Of a stretch of DNA of 60,000 bases, positions 8,201-39,358 are shown piece after piece. Numbering within the stretch: the stretch's first letter is position 1; each line of letters opens with the position of its first letter. A model generated the notes under the pieces. The model was not told where the DNA came from and made no database searches. It worked only from the letters and a program-made list of their open reading frames with translations. A program made the translations under genes and the position numbers. The DNA comes from Bolinopsis microptera (lineage: Eukaryota; Ctenophora; Tentaculata; Lobata; Bolinopsidae), in NCBI RefSeq assembly GCF_026151205.1, contig NC_087076.1, forward strand, positions 13,193,675 to 13,253,674. Direction: 5' to 3'.

Positions 8201-9062
8201 CTAAGCTCCGGCAGATTTAAAAAGTAGATGGTTACTATCAAGGGTGTTCATACCCCCAAACCGTTCAAGGGTTTTCAATTGGGTCTGGTAGAACCCCTCT
8301 CTAGCTTCCATAGCCTTTTCTTTGTCTGCTTTACTAATATTAGGCTCAAATACTAAAGCGTCTACTATAATGACAGAAAGGTGCTTACTAAGTGAGGAAT
8401 TATAGCAGGCTATGGTACTAAAATCTAAATCATGATCAATATCTAAAAAATGGTTAACTAATTTACAACTTCTTATACCTTTCTTTATGTGACTCTTATG
8501 GTTAGAGAATCTCTTAGGGAGATTTGAGGTAGTATAACAGACATACGACTGTTTACAAGTCTTACACTCCATTAAATAAATGAGGTTATAACTCTGACAA
8601 GATATATACTTAGTTATAGGGAAAACTTGTTTAGAATGGTGACTACTAAAATTGGAACAGGGGGACAGGAAATTTTGCTTACAAACATAACATTTACCAC
8701 AAGCATGGCACCCTGGGTCGACAGCCCCGGGAACCGCCCTTAGACTTTCGGAGTCTGGTTCCTGGATCTGGCTTGCAGTTGTTTCTCTCTCATTATCACA
8801 GTTTAAAGTTCCACTGGCACGGTACTTATTGTGTACAAGCATGCCACCGATAGTTTGATTCTTTCGATGACTCACGAATACACTGTCCGCACGTACCAGC
8901 TTCTTCAGGGCCGGATCAAGGTTGAGAAGGTGCTTATACTTATGGATAATGCCCCCCATGTTGGGAAGTGCTGGATTTTGATCCATCACCATGGGTATTA
9001 AACAGGCAGTCGACTCATCCTTGTCTATATATATAATTTCGTTGTGCTTGAGTAAAATTAGT
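8201..9062 (-). CDS. Penelope-like element C-terminus with GIY-YIG endonuclease domain
   Basis: The 263-residue frame from Met at 8992 can be read upstream to about 9062 without a stop. It holds NPALPNMGGIIHKY (linker after the reverse transcriptase), a Cys cluster CHACGKCYVCKQ, then SYNLIYLMECKTCKQSYV and LPKRFSNHKSHI. This is the order typical of the C-terminal GIY-YIG nuclease of Penelope-like retroelements: zinc-binding Cys motif, 'IYLI-C--C', 'YVG-T', 'L--R---H'. The conserved Gly of YVG is replaced by Cys (YVCYTT), while the Arg and His remain, so nuclease activity is doubtful. No reverse-transcriptase part is readable upstream (9.06-10 kb), so the copy is 5'-truncated or replaced. Confidence 0.8.
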
Positions 9063-9189
9063 TGTTAGTAAGAAATTGTATGGAGGGTTCTCCTACGATA
9101 TGGTTTAAAGAAAGAAGAATAATTGATCATGCATATTATTTATCAGCATTATCAGAGGCCTTTAATATGTAATTATTTACTATTAGGAT

Positions 9190-17998: not shown

Positions 17999-19612
17999 TA
18001 TAGACAGGGGGGGGGGGGGGCCAATGGCATAAAATGGCATAAAATGGCATAAAATGGAGACTTTTTCTATGGAGAAAATGGAAAAACCCATGAGTAATTC
18101 TCCATTTTCTCCATTTTATGCCATGAATTTTGTCTTCAAATTTTGATCTTTAACACCTAAATTGGACATCCTAACATGAACATGTTTATTTACGCTTACT
18201 AGGGGCGTAACAAGCTTATGAAAGCTCATAGTAGGCTACTAGATGCTTATACTAGGTTAGTAGAGGCACACTTCAGGCAAACTCATAATTACTCAAGCCT
18301 AGTGTAAAGTTATTTCTACAGGCTACAGCAGGAGTGAGTAATAGGGGAGAGTAATTATAGGCACTGAGAAGTGAGACCTACATCCTCGAAAGTCGAAACA
18401 AGCTCGCACTGCAAAGGGGAGGCCTGCCTTCCGAGATCGCATTACTAGGGGGAAGCCTCGAGTCCAAATTTGTGTATCTAGGGGTAGGTGCAGACTTCGA
18501 TAAACCGAAAAACCAAAAAAATATTTTCGGCTAATAATGAAGAGGGTAGCATGAAACGTGGAGAAAAGTGGTTTTTAGAAAAACTTTGAAAAATTTTGAC
18601 TTAGAAAATTTTCGGCCCGAGTCATTCTCGATACGTACCTCTCGTATCGAGAGCTCACGATTCCGAGCTCGTGTTGCAAAGGGGAGGCCTGCCTTCCGAG
18701 ATCGCATTACCAGGGGGAAGCCTCGAGTCCAAATTTGTGTATCGAGGGGTAGGTGCAGACTTCGATAAACCGAAAAACCAAAAAAAAAATTTCGGCTAAT
18801 AATGAAGAGAGTAGCATGAAACGTGGAGAAAAGTGGTTTTTAGAAAAACTTTGAAAAATTTTGAATTAGAAAATTTTCGGCCGAGTCATTCTCGATACGT
18901 ACCTCTCGTATCGAGAGCTCCCGATTCCGAGCTCGTATTGCAAAGGGGAGGCCTGCCTTCCGAGATCGCATTACCAGGGGGAAGCCTCGAGTCCAAAATT
19001 GTGTACCGAGGGGTAATTTTCTAAGTCAAAATTTTTCAAAGTTTTTCTGAAAAACACTTTTCTCCACGTTTCATGCTACCTTGTTCATTATAAGCCGAAA
19101 ATATTTTTTCGGTCAAAATTTTTCAAATTTTTTCTGAAGACCGCTTTTCTCCACGTTTCATGCTACCCTGTTCATTATTTGCCGAAAATATTTTTTCGAA
19201 GTCCACACCTTCCCCTCGATACACAATTGTGGACTCGAGGTAATGCGATCTCGGAAGGCAGGCCTCCCCTTTGCAACACGAGCACGGAATCGGGAGCTCT
19301 CGATACGGGAGGTACGTATCGAAAATGACTCGGACCGAACATTTTTTTCTAAGTCAACATTTTTCAAAGTTTTTCTGAAAACCACTTTTCTCCATGTTTC
19401 ATGATACCCTGTTCATTATTGGCCGAAAATATCTTTTTTTTAAATAATTTTTCTCGAAATTCTAAATTTTTCAGGTTTTCAATGGCATAAAATGGCATAA
19501 AATGGCATAAAATGGAGACTTTTTCTATGGAGAAAATGGAAAAACCCATGAGTAATTCTCCATTTTCTCCATTTATGCCATTGGCCCCCCCCCCCCCCCC
19601 CCCCTATAGACA
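17999..19612. mobile_element. G/C-tract-ended DNA element 1 (non-autonomous, hAT-like TSD)
   Basis: Element 18007-19604 starts with 14 G followed by CCAATGGCATAAAATGG and ends with the inverse (CCATTTATGCCATTGG then 20 C). Both sides are flanked by a perfect 8-bp duplication TATAGACA (17999-18006, 19605-19612). An 8-bp duplication is the hAT hallmark. A ~105-bp hairpin-forming module (three ATGGCATAAA units, then ATGGAGAAAATGG ... CCATTTTCTCCAT) is present at both ends in the same orientation. The interior holds about 265-bp units, at least two in direct and two in inverted order, each with AGCATGAAACGTGGAGAAAA and GAGGCCTGCCTTCCGAGATC. There is no transposase gene, so mobilisation would be in trans. 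Confidence 0.85.
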
Positions 19613-21351: not shown

Positions 21352-21775
21352 ATAGTTTGTTTTGTCTGTTTTTTTCTGTTTTTGTCCGCCCGAGGAGGAG
21401 GAGGGGGAGGAGGACTAAGGACGAGGAGGACTGAGGAGGACGACGACTACGAGGAGGACTGATGAGAAGAAGGAGGAGGACTGAGGATGACTGAGTAGGA
21501 GGACTGAGGAAGAGGAGGACTGAGCTGAGGAGGACAGAGGAGGACGACTAAAGATGAGGAGGAAGACTGAGGAAGAGGACTGAGGAAAAGGACTGAGGAG
21601 GTGGAGGACTGAGCAGGAGGAGGAAGGAGGAGGAAGCATCTAAATGTTATTTCTATAACATTTTATGTCTGTTTTTGTTTGTTTTGTCTGTTTTTGTCCG
21701 CCCTACTTTTTGTCTGTTTTGAAAATATAGGGTACCAAACGGACAAAAACATGACACCCCCCCCCCCCCCCCCCC
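21352..21775. repeat. GAGGAGGACT purine tract ending in C19, possible third G/C-tract element
   Basis: A purine-rich minisatellite (GAGGAGGACTGA units, 21390-21640) is bracketed by two direct copies of GTTTGTTTTGTCTG...GTCCGCCC (about 21357 and 21678). It ends ACAAAAACATGACA plus 19 C (21757-21775). The architecture (same module at both ends, C tract at the right) recalls the elements at 18.0 and 37.2 kb. The left G tract is only GGGG and no target duplication was found. Confidence 0.5.
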
Positions 21776-35061: not shown

Positions 35062-37152
35062 ATGGCAAACAAGTATGAAATTATCAACACTCAGAGTGAA
35101 GAGGAACGCATGAAGCTTTTGGTTAAGAAAAACAATGCTGGAAAGCTGGTTGAGTTTGCTAAAAATCTTTTGTTTGGTAATGCCATCTGAATTAATCATT
35201 TTACTTAAGTGCAAGAATGCCTACTTATTTTCACTAGGTTTATGATATTACCTGTCCTTGATCAGATAGACAGGTTGGTGAGCAACTGTATATTTTTAAA
35301 TAGTTTTATACTTAGTTTCACATTTTATCCTAGTCCTGACCCAAATAAATGGTATTTGATAAGTAGATAATGGAACAGCTATTTTCACTGATTGAATTTG
35401 AAACTTAACCGTCCTGTTGTCAGATAAGAAGATTACTGTTACATGTAAATGTGCGATATCTCTAATTTCTTTACTGGAGCAACAAGATCTTGTCAAGCAG
35501 GTTTCTAATCAGCTCCCTTATTCTTAACTGTTAGGTTTTGAGCTTGATTTGCTAAATTTAGTAATAACGAATTATCTAGTGTATGGACGTGTCCATTATA
35601 TATACCAAAAGTCAGTGGGCATACGTTGGCCTTAATAGCTCAGTCACTGGTTGCACAATTGAAATAATTCTTTCTGGTATGACTTACTACCACCACTGGT
35701 TCGAGGAATTTGTCAAATTGAAAAATATTCGAGATCATTTTTTCAAATGAAGGTTCATTTTTGCATTTATTTGATAGTTGGGATAGTCGGATCGAATTAA
35801 ATTTTATTGAATTGTGTTTGGCCATTCGAATTACGTTTGTCCTTAAAAAATTAGAACTGTAGCTTCTCAGATGACCGAGATATGAAGCATAACGAGTTTA
35901 TTCATTACGCGTTAAACATTATGGGAATTGTTAAGGGTGCCCAATTAAGGTGTCGTGTCACGGTGTCACATAATCACCCAGTCAATTTTGTTAACGAGAT
36001 ACAGAAAATGCTTGATAACTTCGTCATTTCTAATCTGTTTTGCCTCATGTTTTCAGATCATATGCAACATTTGATACTCTACCGTCTCTGAAAAATTAGG
36101 CGTTCAGCATGTTCAGAGAAAACAGTATAGGTGTTTTAATATTGAATGGGCGTGGTCTTAAATATTCGAATTTTCAAATTTTGACGGCGGAATCCTCGAA
36201 CTAGTAAGTACAGTATGCCATCTGCAAAGCAACAGCTCTCAAATATAAAACATGGTGGAGCTATTAAGGCCAACGTATGCCCACTGACTTTTGGCCCACC
36301 CTGTACTATGCTATGAATGTGTATATTCACTTAATAGTGAGTTCTATTGTCGTTCAAATGATTCTACCATTTTGAAAACAAGTGGTACATATTTAGATAT
36401 TTCTAATTCTAAAAGTTATCTGATTGGCTGTTTGCCAGGTTACAACCGAACTGATAACAGCTCTCAACACTTTTGTCTCTTCTGCTCCAGTTGGCTCGCT
36501 GCAAGAAATTTCTCAACACTTTTTGGATGTTATCATGAAATCCAACAACTCATGCGGAAAGTAGGTAGCTCACTGGAAAATTGTTAACAAGATTAGATTA
36601 ATAACATATAATATTACAACATCGCAAATTAGATCTTTAATTTGTATCAAATTTCTAGTTTTACATTCAGGAGTTTTGAAGTATTGGGACAAGTTTTGAA
36701 TTGTCTTGAGGCTTGTCGACAAACGGTATCTTGTGATGGTGAGGAGTTTACTGGTCCAGAATACAGATCTCATCTCATCAACAAAATCTGCAGTGTCAGG
36801 TACCTGGGTACATACAGCTTATATCACAAATTTTCCCAGTGCAGAAATGGAAATATGGTTCTATAAACTTTAATATAATGCAGACAGTTAAACTATGTTT
36901 AAGATTATATGATATTAATTTTAGGTGGCCCCAAAACAACATCCTACACATTGGCCAGATGTTTCAGGACATAACAGTTTCACAAAGTGAGATGGCATTT
37001 TTCATCGAGAAGATTTGTTCCAGCCTGTCTCTTGTGAAGTTTGATGTTGTTCCACAGATTGTTCACTTATTACTTCTATCAGCTGCTAAGGTAACTTTTG
37101 AATGAGTTTTCTTAGGGTATGTACTATACAGATGCCTTCTTAATTAAAATAC

Positions 37153-37184
<32 letters not shown>

Positions 37185-38884
37185 ACCATATTAAAGTATA
37201 TTAAGGGGGCCGGGGGGGGGGGGGGGTCTTCATCAAAATTCTCTCGAAATTGACTTTATAGTTGTTTCTGGTAGAAGGGAGTGATATCTACCAGCTGCTT
37301 TTGGTCCCATGGAAAAATATTGTTCCTAGCCGAAAACCTGAAAAAATCGTAAAAAAACGAGGTCCAAGATTTTCAAAATTGAATAAAAAAATTTTAAAGG
37401 CCTATCTCAAAATTTTGGCTCGATCAAATCTTCTAAATGGTCCCTAGAACATATCCTGAAAGTTTCAGGGTGATTGCTCAAAAAATGTAGGAGAAGATAG
37501 ATTTTTAGACTCGATTTTCAGAATTTGCGATTGAAAATCGCTCGCGCAATACAATTACACATAAGCGGCAAGCGCTGACCTTAGACCAGCGATAATTTCG
37601 GCTAGGAACAATATTTTTCCATGGGACCAAAAGCAGCTGGTATATATCACTCCCCTCTACCAGAAACAACTATAAAGTCAATTTCGAGAGAATTTTGATG
37701 AAGACCCCCCCCCGGCCCCCTTAAAGTATATCCCCGGGTCAAAATCGGAAAAAATCCTACATTTTAATATACTTTAATATACCTACAATTAGAAGATTTA
37801 TATTCTTCGTTAAGATTTACATGATGAACTATATTTTTCACTCAGATTCGCAAGATAAGCCTGTTTTAGGACTAGTACATGAATTTCCATCCAGATTGGT
37901 CAAAAATTGGCTGATCTATGAGCTTTAAAAAATATGCCCATATTTGGGCATACGCTTTCGTCCAAATTCGCTTTTGCCCAAATTCGATAAAATTTCAATA
38001 TTTTTTAATGAGACTAACTCTATGTGAAAGATATAACTCAGTGTTTGTTGGATATAGTGGATACTAAGTAAAAAGACCTCCATGAACAAAATTGGGAAAA
38101 TTGCACATAATATCTCGGTTCAGAATACTAGCCAAAATAACTTCAATAAATTGAAATAACTCCATCAGTTTTCAATATTTTTTCAAGAACTTTTTGGAAT
38201 CGATTAAGGATTGCATTTCAAGCTTATTTTGGGCAACAATTTTTGATGTAGGCCTCCAAGGAGATAGGGATATATTAAAGTATATTAAAGTATATTAAAG
38301 TATATTAAAGTATATTAAAGTATATCCCCGGGTCAAAATCGGGAAAAATCCTACATTTTAATATACTTTAATATGGTTGCCCCCCCCCCCCCCCCAAATA
38401 CTCAAAAATTAAGTTTTGAACAGCAATTTTATTTTACAAACCTAATCAAACAAATGTATATATTTGTTTGATCAAAGTTAAATGGCTCATGTCAGGGTCA
38501 TCACAAGAAAGTTGTGTTTGGATTAACAAGTAACTTCAATGATATGGAGGAGAAGGAACAAAATGAGTGAGTTAAGCTTCTCCTTTAGCTTTCTAAGGAT
38601 TGAAATTATATTTATTGTTTTTTATTGAGTGTTTCTGAGCTGAAAACTTAACTTGGTAGGTTGACCTTACCTCTGCTGAAGTACTAGTAAATAAATTTGG
38701 AGAGTCATAATTAGTAATGATATGTACATAGCATCAAATCAACAGTCTGTATCGTTCTATGACTATACGTGGCTTACACACATTCTGCAGCCAAGAAGAA
38801 ATGACACGGGATGTTGAAAGTGAGCGGAGTCAAGCAGAGGGAACATCACTTCTACACATCTCCTTCGCTGTAAAACATGACCTG
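35062..38884 (+). CDS. FANCI: FANCI, N-terminal part (seven exons)
   Basis: Fanconi anaemia group I protein, partner of FANCD2 in DNA interstrand crosslink repair (nucleus). Exons: 35062-35176, 35424-35500, 36439-36560, 36671-36799, 36925-37090, 38496-38566, 38791-38884. All have GT-AG ends and every exon joins the next in phase. Diagnostic pieces against vertebrate FANCI are KITVTCKCAISLISLLE, EFTGPEYRSHLINKICSVR followed by WPQNNILHIGQMFQD, EKICSSLSLVKF, VPQIVHLLLLSAAK and GTSLLHISFAVKHDL. Together these cover roughly the first fifth of the usual ~1300 residues. A segment of about 45 residues between exons 1 and 2 and a short one before exon 3 were not found. The start Met at 35062 is a choice: a coding-like stretch precedes it. 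The next plausible exon (38963) stops in frame after ten codons. Transposons occupy two introns. Confidence 0.75.
35605..36294. mobile_element. DNA element with perfect 37-bp terminal inverted repeats, in FANCI intron
   Basis: CCAAAAGTCAGTGGGCATAC... (35605-35641) is exactly repeated in inverse at 36258-36294. The right side continues CCCACCCTGTA, so the original end may have been the mariner-like CAGGGTGGGCCAAAAGT with TA target. On the left this outer part is missing. The 690-bp element carries only short frames with no transposase similarity, so it is non-autonomous. Confidence 0.8.
37147..38402. mobile_element. G/C-tract-ended DNA element 2, in FANCI intron
   Basis: Element 37154-38395 begins with 29 G, then CAACCATATTAAAGTATATT, and ends AATATACTTTAATATGGTTG plus 16 C. 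It is flanked by AAATACT on both sides (37147-37153, 38396-38402). The duplication is seven bases, or eight with one mismatch. As in element 1, a hairpin-forming module (AAGTATATCCCCGGGTCAAA to ATCCTACATTTTAATATAC) appears twice in direct orientation, at 37725-37785 and 38316-38375. The centre is AT-rich with no transposase, and TATATTAAAG is repeated five times at 38273-38325. A second element is nested inside. Confidence 0.8.
37201..37724. mobile_element. Nested TTAA-flanked inverted-repeat element
   Basis: GGGGGCCGGGGG...GTCTTCATCAAAATTC (from 37205) to the inverse ending CCGGCCCCC (37720), with TTAA on both sides. The inverted repeats run for about 135 bases (37205-37340 with 37585-37720). 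The empty site is visible in the sister module at 38318-38335 (TATATTAAAGTATATCCCC), which shows one TTAA where two flank the insert. TTAA duplication is typical of piggyBac-like elements, but the termini are unusual for that group. Confidence 0.8.

Positions 38885-39325: not shown

Positions 39326-39358
<33 letters not shown>
39326..39358. repeat. Solo G33 tract
   Basis: Thirty-three G without a matching C tract downstream. It might be the remaining end of a third G/C-tract element or a simple repeat. Confidence 0.9.

Follow-up and report, generated by a model that had tools for sequence, protein, structure and literature searches.

A mobile element with G- and C-tract ends and directly repeated hairpin modules in the ctenophore Bolinopsis microptera

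Introduction

Foldback-type elements include Drosophila FB, which is flanked by a 9-bp target duplication, and Galileo and Tetris are also counted among them, with a 7-bp duplication for Galileo. Generic miniature inverted-repeat transposable elements (MITEs) are short and non-coding, have inverted ends and a target duplication, and occur in many near-identical copies, while long terminal repeat (LTR) retrotransposons carry direct terminal repeats and give rise to solo and tandem derivatives. In Tm1 from root-knot nematodes, the inverted ends are composite and contain tandem repeats of 13-15 bp, and the duplications measure 8-10 bp, mostly 9 bp (PMC3169594). Two further reports assign terminal GG and 8-9-bp duplications to Merlin (PMC8101967), and 6-bp duplications with mostly TA..TA ends to IS3EU and GingerRoot (PMC10045372). 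The element described here lies at positions 37147-38402 of a 60,000-nucleotide stretch of B. microptera DNA (contig NC_087076.1), the whole of which is referred to as the window. It is a non-coding mobile element and probably represents a non-autonomous foldback-type (MITE-like) DNA transposon with slippage-prone homopolymer ends. Together with its copies it is called the study element or study family in the following.

Anatomy and copies of the study element

The outer element is composed of the following parts:

37147-37153, forward strand: left target-site duplication AAATACT (direct reading)
37154-37182, forward strand: terminal G29 tract (direct reading; 9-60 across 39 family copies)
37183-37204, forward strand: left terminal inverted repeat CAACCATATTAAAGTATATTAA, opening part of the left hairpin module
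37721-37781, forward strand: remainder of the left hairpin module, left type CGGAAAAAATCC (direct-repeat comparison)
37782-38270, forward strand: core, between the two modules
38271-38379, forward strand: right hairpin module with 10-bp tandem repeats TATATTAAAG, right-type loop CCCCGGGTCAAAATCGGG and an inverted arm ending GGTTG
38380-38395, forward strand: terminal C16 tract (8-30 across 39 family copies)
38396-38402, forward strand: right target-site duplication AAATACT (direct reading)

The ends form a perfect 38-nt inverted repeat, 16 positions of which are tract letters, and a 60-bp module, TTAAAGTATATCCCCGGGTCAAAATCGG(A/G)AAAAATCCTACATTTTAATATACTTTAATAT, occurs twice in direct orientation with 98% identity at a spacing of 594 bp. 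The initial annotation had reported G29...C16 ends, AAATACT on both sides and a hairpin module directly repeated at both ends, all of which is confirmed with the tracts at 37154-37182 and 38380-38395. Its description of 37147-38402 is correct for the architecture but overlooked a nested 516-bp, TTAA-flanked element in the left module. No open reading frame of at least 90 amino acids is present in the core (37782-38270), and an Rfam scan of the window gave no match at the gathering score. Relative to shuffled sequences, folding of the right module in the window reaches a z of -4.6, and that of a copy with a single module (L128, see below) a z of -8.1.

When the 264.65-Mb genome was searched with positions 37723-38379 as query and 40 of 1,223 candidates were scored, at least 52 matches were obtained, of which at least 41 are near-full-length and distributed over at least 40 loci (window included) with 96-100% identity. 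With 12 Gs included, the left-end pattern has 82 exact occurrences in the genome. The element cannot be attributed to chance, as 39 of the 40 fetched loci share its ends and module and have a flanking duplication.

Target duplications were tallied at 39 of these 40 loci; L033 was excluded (its left tract is just GGG), L011 and L014 were set by eye, and the duplication of L014 was accepted with one mismatch. The duplication comprises 6 bp in 26 copies, 7 bp in seven and 5 bp in six, begins with A in 36 of the 39 and ends with T in 27. A second batch of 20 regions, with 12 copies scorable by script, yielded 6 bp seven times, 5 bp and 7 bp once each, and no duplication in three copies. A truncated copy, L120, lies between repeats of host sequence that take in the final bases ahead of the G tract; it represents an aberrant insertion or a later duplication.

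Length and change of the terminal tracts

The lengths of the G and the C tract of one copy show no correlation (rho 0.13, P 0.44, n = 39; here and in the length ranges given above, a neighbouring G run was counted at L011, 21 instead of 25). Copies with common flanks, which look like one insertion copied within larger repeats, differ in their tracts, as the initial annotation had suspected for the time after insertion: L082 and L137 have G32/C24 and G17/C25, respectively, and L110 (twice), L112 and L124 have G16, G21, G15 and G12. The latter four, whose interior is changed, were rejected as separate insertions because shared flank and interior point to one insertion inside a larger repeat. The simplest cause of the differences is slippage, with homopolymer read error as the alternative. 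L082 (G000:C1:108274) and L137 (C1:3319116) consist of a G tract, 12 bp (ATTACTCATGAT) and a C tract between AGTATAT flanks; with almost no interior and with common flanks, they look like one insertion.

Genome-wide, overlapping G20 positions number 35,560 on the forward and 41,340 on the reverse strand. As an unselected sample, the 14 forward G20 stretches heading the list for C1 were inspected. Three of them (L082, L089, L093) are elements whose paired tracts and duplication lie within 2.6 kb, two are low-complexity sequence, one is a long G array and eight are without a duplication-flanked pair. As far as so small a sample can tell, tract elements explain part of the genome's long G runs; for most of the sampled runs, a position at the end of an element is not shown. 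Two random 10-kb stretches (L079, L080) contain five G/C runs of at least 8 and no clear element with a duplication. A CACTCACTACGTCA satellite-like array at L094 (G000:C1:1242493-1245193) is accompanied by G runs of 59, 136 and 54.

Other families with the same plan

Another element in the window, used for comparison and belonging to what is called the 18-kb family, has these parts:

17999-19612, forward strand: comparison element with the TATAGACA duplication on both sides
18007-18020 and 19585-19604, forward strand: G14 and C20 tracts
18022-18116 and 19480-19574, forward strand: direct hairpin modules of 95 nt, 100% identical, 1458 bp apart

Among 19 further copies, an exact 8-bp duplication is present in 13, or in 16 if G/C bases merged with the tracts are counted. 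The flanking duplication of 7-8 bp expected initially thus fits the 18-kb family but not the study family (mode 6 bp). The genome holds 27 exact ends of a third family, CAACGCCCC... (CAACGCCCCAAAAG...). Five loci of this family were fetched, and L165, L166 and L167 contain two or three direct modules; TATATA occurs on both sides of L166, and AGTATA flanks the composite at L165, with a tiny copy immediately behind it. Three sequence-unrelated families therefore have direct hairpin modules at both ends (study, 18-kb and CAACGCCCC), in line with the initial view that the study and 18-kb elements share a plan and not a sequence.

A mid-size search for G12-(64-94 bp)-C12 returned 58 places, as compared to 32 for the reversed pattern. 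Within the 50 listed of these 58, a significant inverted repeat lies beside the tracts in 28 (0.25 expected). The 28 were sorted by eye into about 14 families, each represented by one end. CAA occurs at most 7 nt from the G tract in 12 of the 14 (shuffle mean 1.8, maximum 8 in 20,000 sets), a significance that is indicative, as some families begin alike (CAATGGCATAAAATGG twice, CAACCTCAT twice) and not all are independent. The best internal period among lags 6-14 is 10 bp in eight of the 14. Tiny versions with 8-38 bp between the tracts were found at 79 places versus 20 for the reversed pattern; they include a study-family version with a 33-bp interior and AGATTTT on both sides (L155) and an element with TTAA flanks (L142).

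Taken together, the plan of tract, inverted repeat and tract is real and widespread in the genome. Searches for paired G and C tracts have led well beyond the two elements of the window, and in this respect the initial suggestion is supported. A superfamily in the sense of one common transposase is not supported, since duplications are 6 +/-1 bp in the study family, 8 bp in the 18-kb family and TTAA at L142. With duplication lengths of 6, 8 and perhaps 4, at least two integration machineries have probably been at work, and the case for a single superfamily is unproven.

Several protein profiles were considered in the search for a coding partner, the Mutator and P profiles because a foldback element would be expected to use a transposase of one of these kinds. 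The Merlin profile (DDE_Tnp_IS1595) has 58 matches in the genome. At the 14 of these loci that were examined, no link to the tract elements was found: no placeable end carries a tract of 8 or more, and the placeable ends start with GGC or GGT. Three Merlin-profile loci have 8-bp duplications (L104 GAATATCC, L107 CAATCGTG and L108 CGTATAGA), and at L100, L102, L103, L105 and L108 tandem repeats of 10-11 bp make up the inverted ends. The Mutator profile PF20700, with 18 matches, gave no link either: eight loci were examined, all without a G/C run of at least 7 and none linked to study-family ends. Two Mutator-profile loci with long open frames have inverted ends beginning with TTAA and, by eye, a THAP-like N-terminus; we take them to be Kolobok-like. 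The P element profile PF12017 gave no match in the genome, though the profile's control was silent too. A pattern for a version with extended repeat arrays hit a single place, at 3 mismatches, and viral contigs searched with two patterns gave no match.

These data bear on the chief alternative, namely that unrelated superfamilies with GG-starting ends each expanded their terminal Gs by slippage, so that the likeness would be a property of the host. Such convergence is a serious possibility, albeit short of probable. It would accommodate tract ends that occur with duplications of 6 +/-1 bp, 8 bp and TTAA (L142), as well as Merlin-profile elements that, with GGC/GGT ends, 8-bp duplications and 10-11-bp repeats, differ from the 18-kb family mainly by the tract. 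The host is also rich in long G runs (35,560 + 41,340 G20 positions), eight of the 14 sampled being without a paired element. However, a CAA near the tract in 12 of 14 families and a direct-module plan in three unrelated ones would be unexpected for independent superfamilies, and the Merlin ends observed here are unexpanded.

Conceivably, though this is rather doubtful as a whole, a single undescribed system recognizes the G tract, (Y)CCAA(Y) and a 10-bp-phased hairpin. Its minimal unit would be a hairpin, (G)n-stem-loop-stem-(C)n, with interiors down to a few tens of bp. The stems would diverge freely while tract, CAA motif and 10-bp phase were kept, and the duplication length would vary by lineage. 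The tract would then be a working part of the end, perhaps through a quadruplex or C-strand structure or through end pairing.

Left and right modules, solo and tandem forms

For the study family, 57 left modules were compared with 57 right ones, and nine further modules, whose place was unclear, were left aside. The letters are of the CGGAAAAAATCC type on the left and CGGGAAAAATCC on the right; the G type is found in one of 57 left modules versus 53 of 57 right modules. Moreover, two TATTAAAG units are present in 53 of 57 left modules, and three or more in 53 of 57 right modules. These fixed differences imply that the modules are copied as parts of one linear DNA and are not renewed like LTRs. 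The same kind of left/right difference is seen at three loci of the CAACGCCCC family (L165-L167).

Shorter and longer forms exist as well. The solo form consists of a G tract, one 85-bp module and a C tract, and is flanked by AAATAA at L119 and by AGTTACA at L128. Seven solo-sized places, L128 among them, are found at up to 3 mismatches; one of them, on C12, is without the terminal CCAACC letters, and three of the six that were fetched have a duplication of at least 5 bp. All six solos scored have two repeat units and are left-like in this respect, and five of them carry the right-type letter. They thus appear as left/right chimeras, the signature expected of recombination between direct modules. 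Conversely, the tandem copy L023 has three modules within one duplication, AAATT.

Mobility could also reside primarily in the solo hairpin, two of which would then make up the 650-bp form, but we consider this unlikely. Solo-sized forms do occur in the study family (seven places) and, by eye, in the 18-kb and CAACGCCCC families, and the L119 solo has a loop variant of its own. Yet, the inner borders of the composite are without tracts, and five of six scored solos look like chimeras of a left and a right module.

Retrotransposition, with the modules as miniature LTRs or with target-primed reverse transcription adding untemplated G/C tails, is improbable. Direct terminal repeats, solo and tandem forms, a duplication of variable length with one sharply defined edge and the identical modules of the 18-kb copy in the window would all suit it. 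In the study family, however, left/right differences are fixed over dozens of copies, the opposite of LTR renewal, and 39 of the 40 loci fetched first have both inverted ends. That tracts or elements are assembly or sequencing artefacts can hardly be maintained, for although homopolymers are error-prone and L088 and L090 lie in low-complexity sequence (L090 adjoining N), duplications outside and inverted repeats inside the tracts agree at independent loci.

Proposed mechanism

As a foldback-type, MITE-like transposon, the study element would be mobilized in trans by a putative transposase, presumably by cut-and-paste chemistry. The ends of the element consist of a palindromic hairpin module of 10-bp repeats, capped by homopolymers with G outside on the left and C outside on the right. 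Insertion would proceed via a staggered cut of 5-7 bp, mostly 6 bp, with a duplication starting with A. Both modules would travel in one linear DNA template, each keeping its own diagnostic letters. Once inserted, directly repeated modules may recombine into solo and tandem copies, and tract length may change through replication slippage.

A number of observations weigh against this proposal and the plan behind it. Searches for a coding relative with study-family ends, which were partial, found none. A duplication whose length varies between 5 and 7 bp is uncommon for a single DDE transposase, and the stronger preference for A at one edge (92%) than at the other (69%) would also suit target-primed insertion. 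Three of eight solo copies examined are without a recognizable duplication, as are three of the 19 copies of the 18-kb family with regard to its 8 bp. The two modules of the 18-kb copy in the window are identical over 95 nt, so that the argument from asymmetry, which holds for the study family and is joined by three loci of the CAACGCCCC family, may not extend to the 18-kb family. As to the wider plan, a significant inverted repeat is lacking at 22 of the 50 listed mid-size places, the study family alone supplies nine of the 28 that pass, and the reversed-pattern control is not empty (20 vs 79 for tiny, 32 vs 58 for mid-size places). Among 20 tiny elements fetched, the script found a duplication of at least 5 bp in six (one a copy of L082), TTAA in one and none in 13; in L153, scored as none, AGTGGAAT can be read by eye to the left and right of a broken tract.

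Nested element and genomic surroundings

Two features adjoin or interrupt the study element:

37205-37720, no strand assigned: nested separate element of 516 bp with 124-bp inverted repeats and TTAA flanks, not part of the outer element
36917-37084, forward strand: host gene exon, matching FANCI solenoid 1

The inverted repeats of the nested element, which sits inside the left module, are 97% complementary, and the ends of that element read GGGGGCCGGGG. Its target TTAA closes the CAACCATATTAAAGTATATTAA stretch at 37183-37204, and the left module is continuous, without the 516-bp insert, in four study-family relatives compared. We take the TTAA target to be piggyBac/Kolobok-like. The study element stands just downstream of the FANCI-like exon and hence most likely in the following intron.

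Elsewhere in the window, a lone G33 at 39326-39358 is followed by no C run of at least 9 within the window. A remnant of another tract family at about 21356-21775 reads ...GGACAAAAACATGACA + C19 and has a polypurine interior, its left G tract not being seen; its relative L093 has G32, C8 and the duplication TTTATTGG. On the reverse strand, 8204-9064 holds a 287-amino-acid open frame with a GIY-YIG domain, perhaps of a Penelope-like retroelement.

Comparison with known systems

LTR retrotransposons, whose terminal direct repeats are renewed in each cycle, differ from the study family, in which the modules keep fixed left/right differences, the outermost sequence is inverted and no coding sequence is present. 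Owing to this fixed asymmetry, solo formation is easy to follow. The likeness to Merlin and IS1016 lies in a terminal GG, trivially provided by the G tract, in the 8-bp duplications of the 18-kb family, which alone falls within the 8-9 bp of Merlin, and in the 10-11-bp tandem repeats that Merlin-profile elements in this genome have in their ends. As a whole, the Merlin-profile loci are similar to the 18-kb family but not to the study family. In contrast to Merlin, the study family duplicates 6 +/-1 bp (mode 6), and no placeable Merlin end has a G tract.

Homopolymer caps are not mentioned for Tm1, Merlin, IS3EU or GingerRoot in the available portions of the sources (PMC3169594, PMC8101967, PMC10045372), and the literature searches made returned no description of G-tract-ended transposons. 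If the tract is a working part, it would constitute a homopolymeric end signal absent from the known families compared, as far as the accessible parts of their descriptions extend. If it reflects slippage only, the many paired G/C homopolymers at identifiable insertion points would provide a natural experiment on G-tract instability.

The study element matches generic MITEs in its general features, including inverted ends and a flanking duplication in several copies, and differs from them by its direct hairpin modules and homopolymer caps. Closest in anatomy are the foldback elements. The study element departs from these in its G/C homopolymer caps, its 10-bp units and its direct-orientation modules with solo forms, and the study family in its 6-bp duplications starting with A, where 7 bp, the length known from Galileo, is reached in seven of 39 copies and the mode lies below the 9 bp of Tm1 and FB. 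Like foldback-type elements, however, it has inverted ends that fold back, are built from short tandem repeats and form composites with outer motifs.

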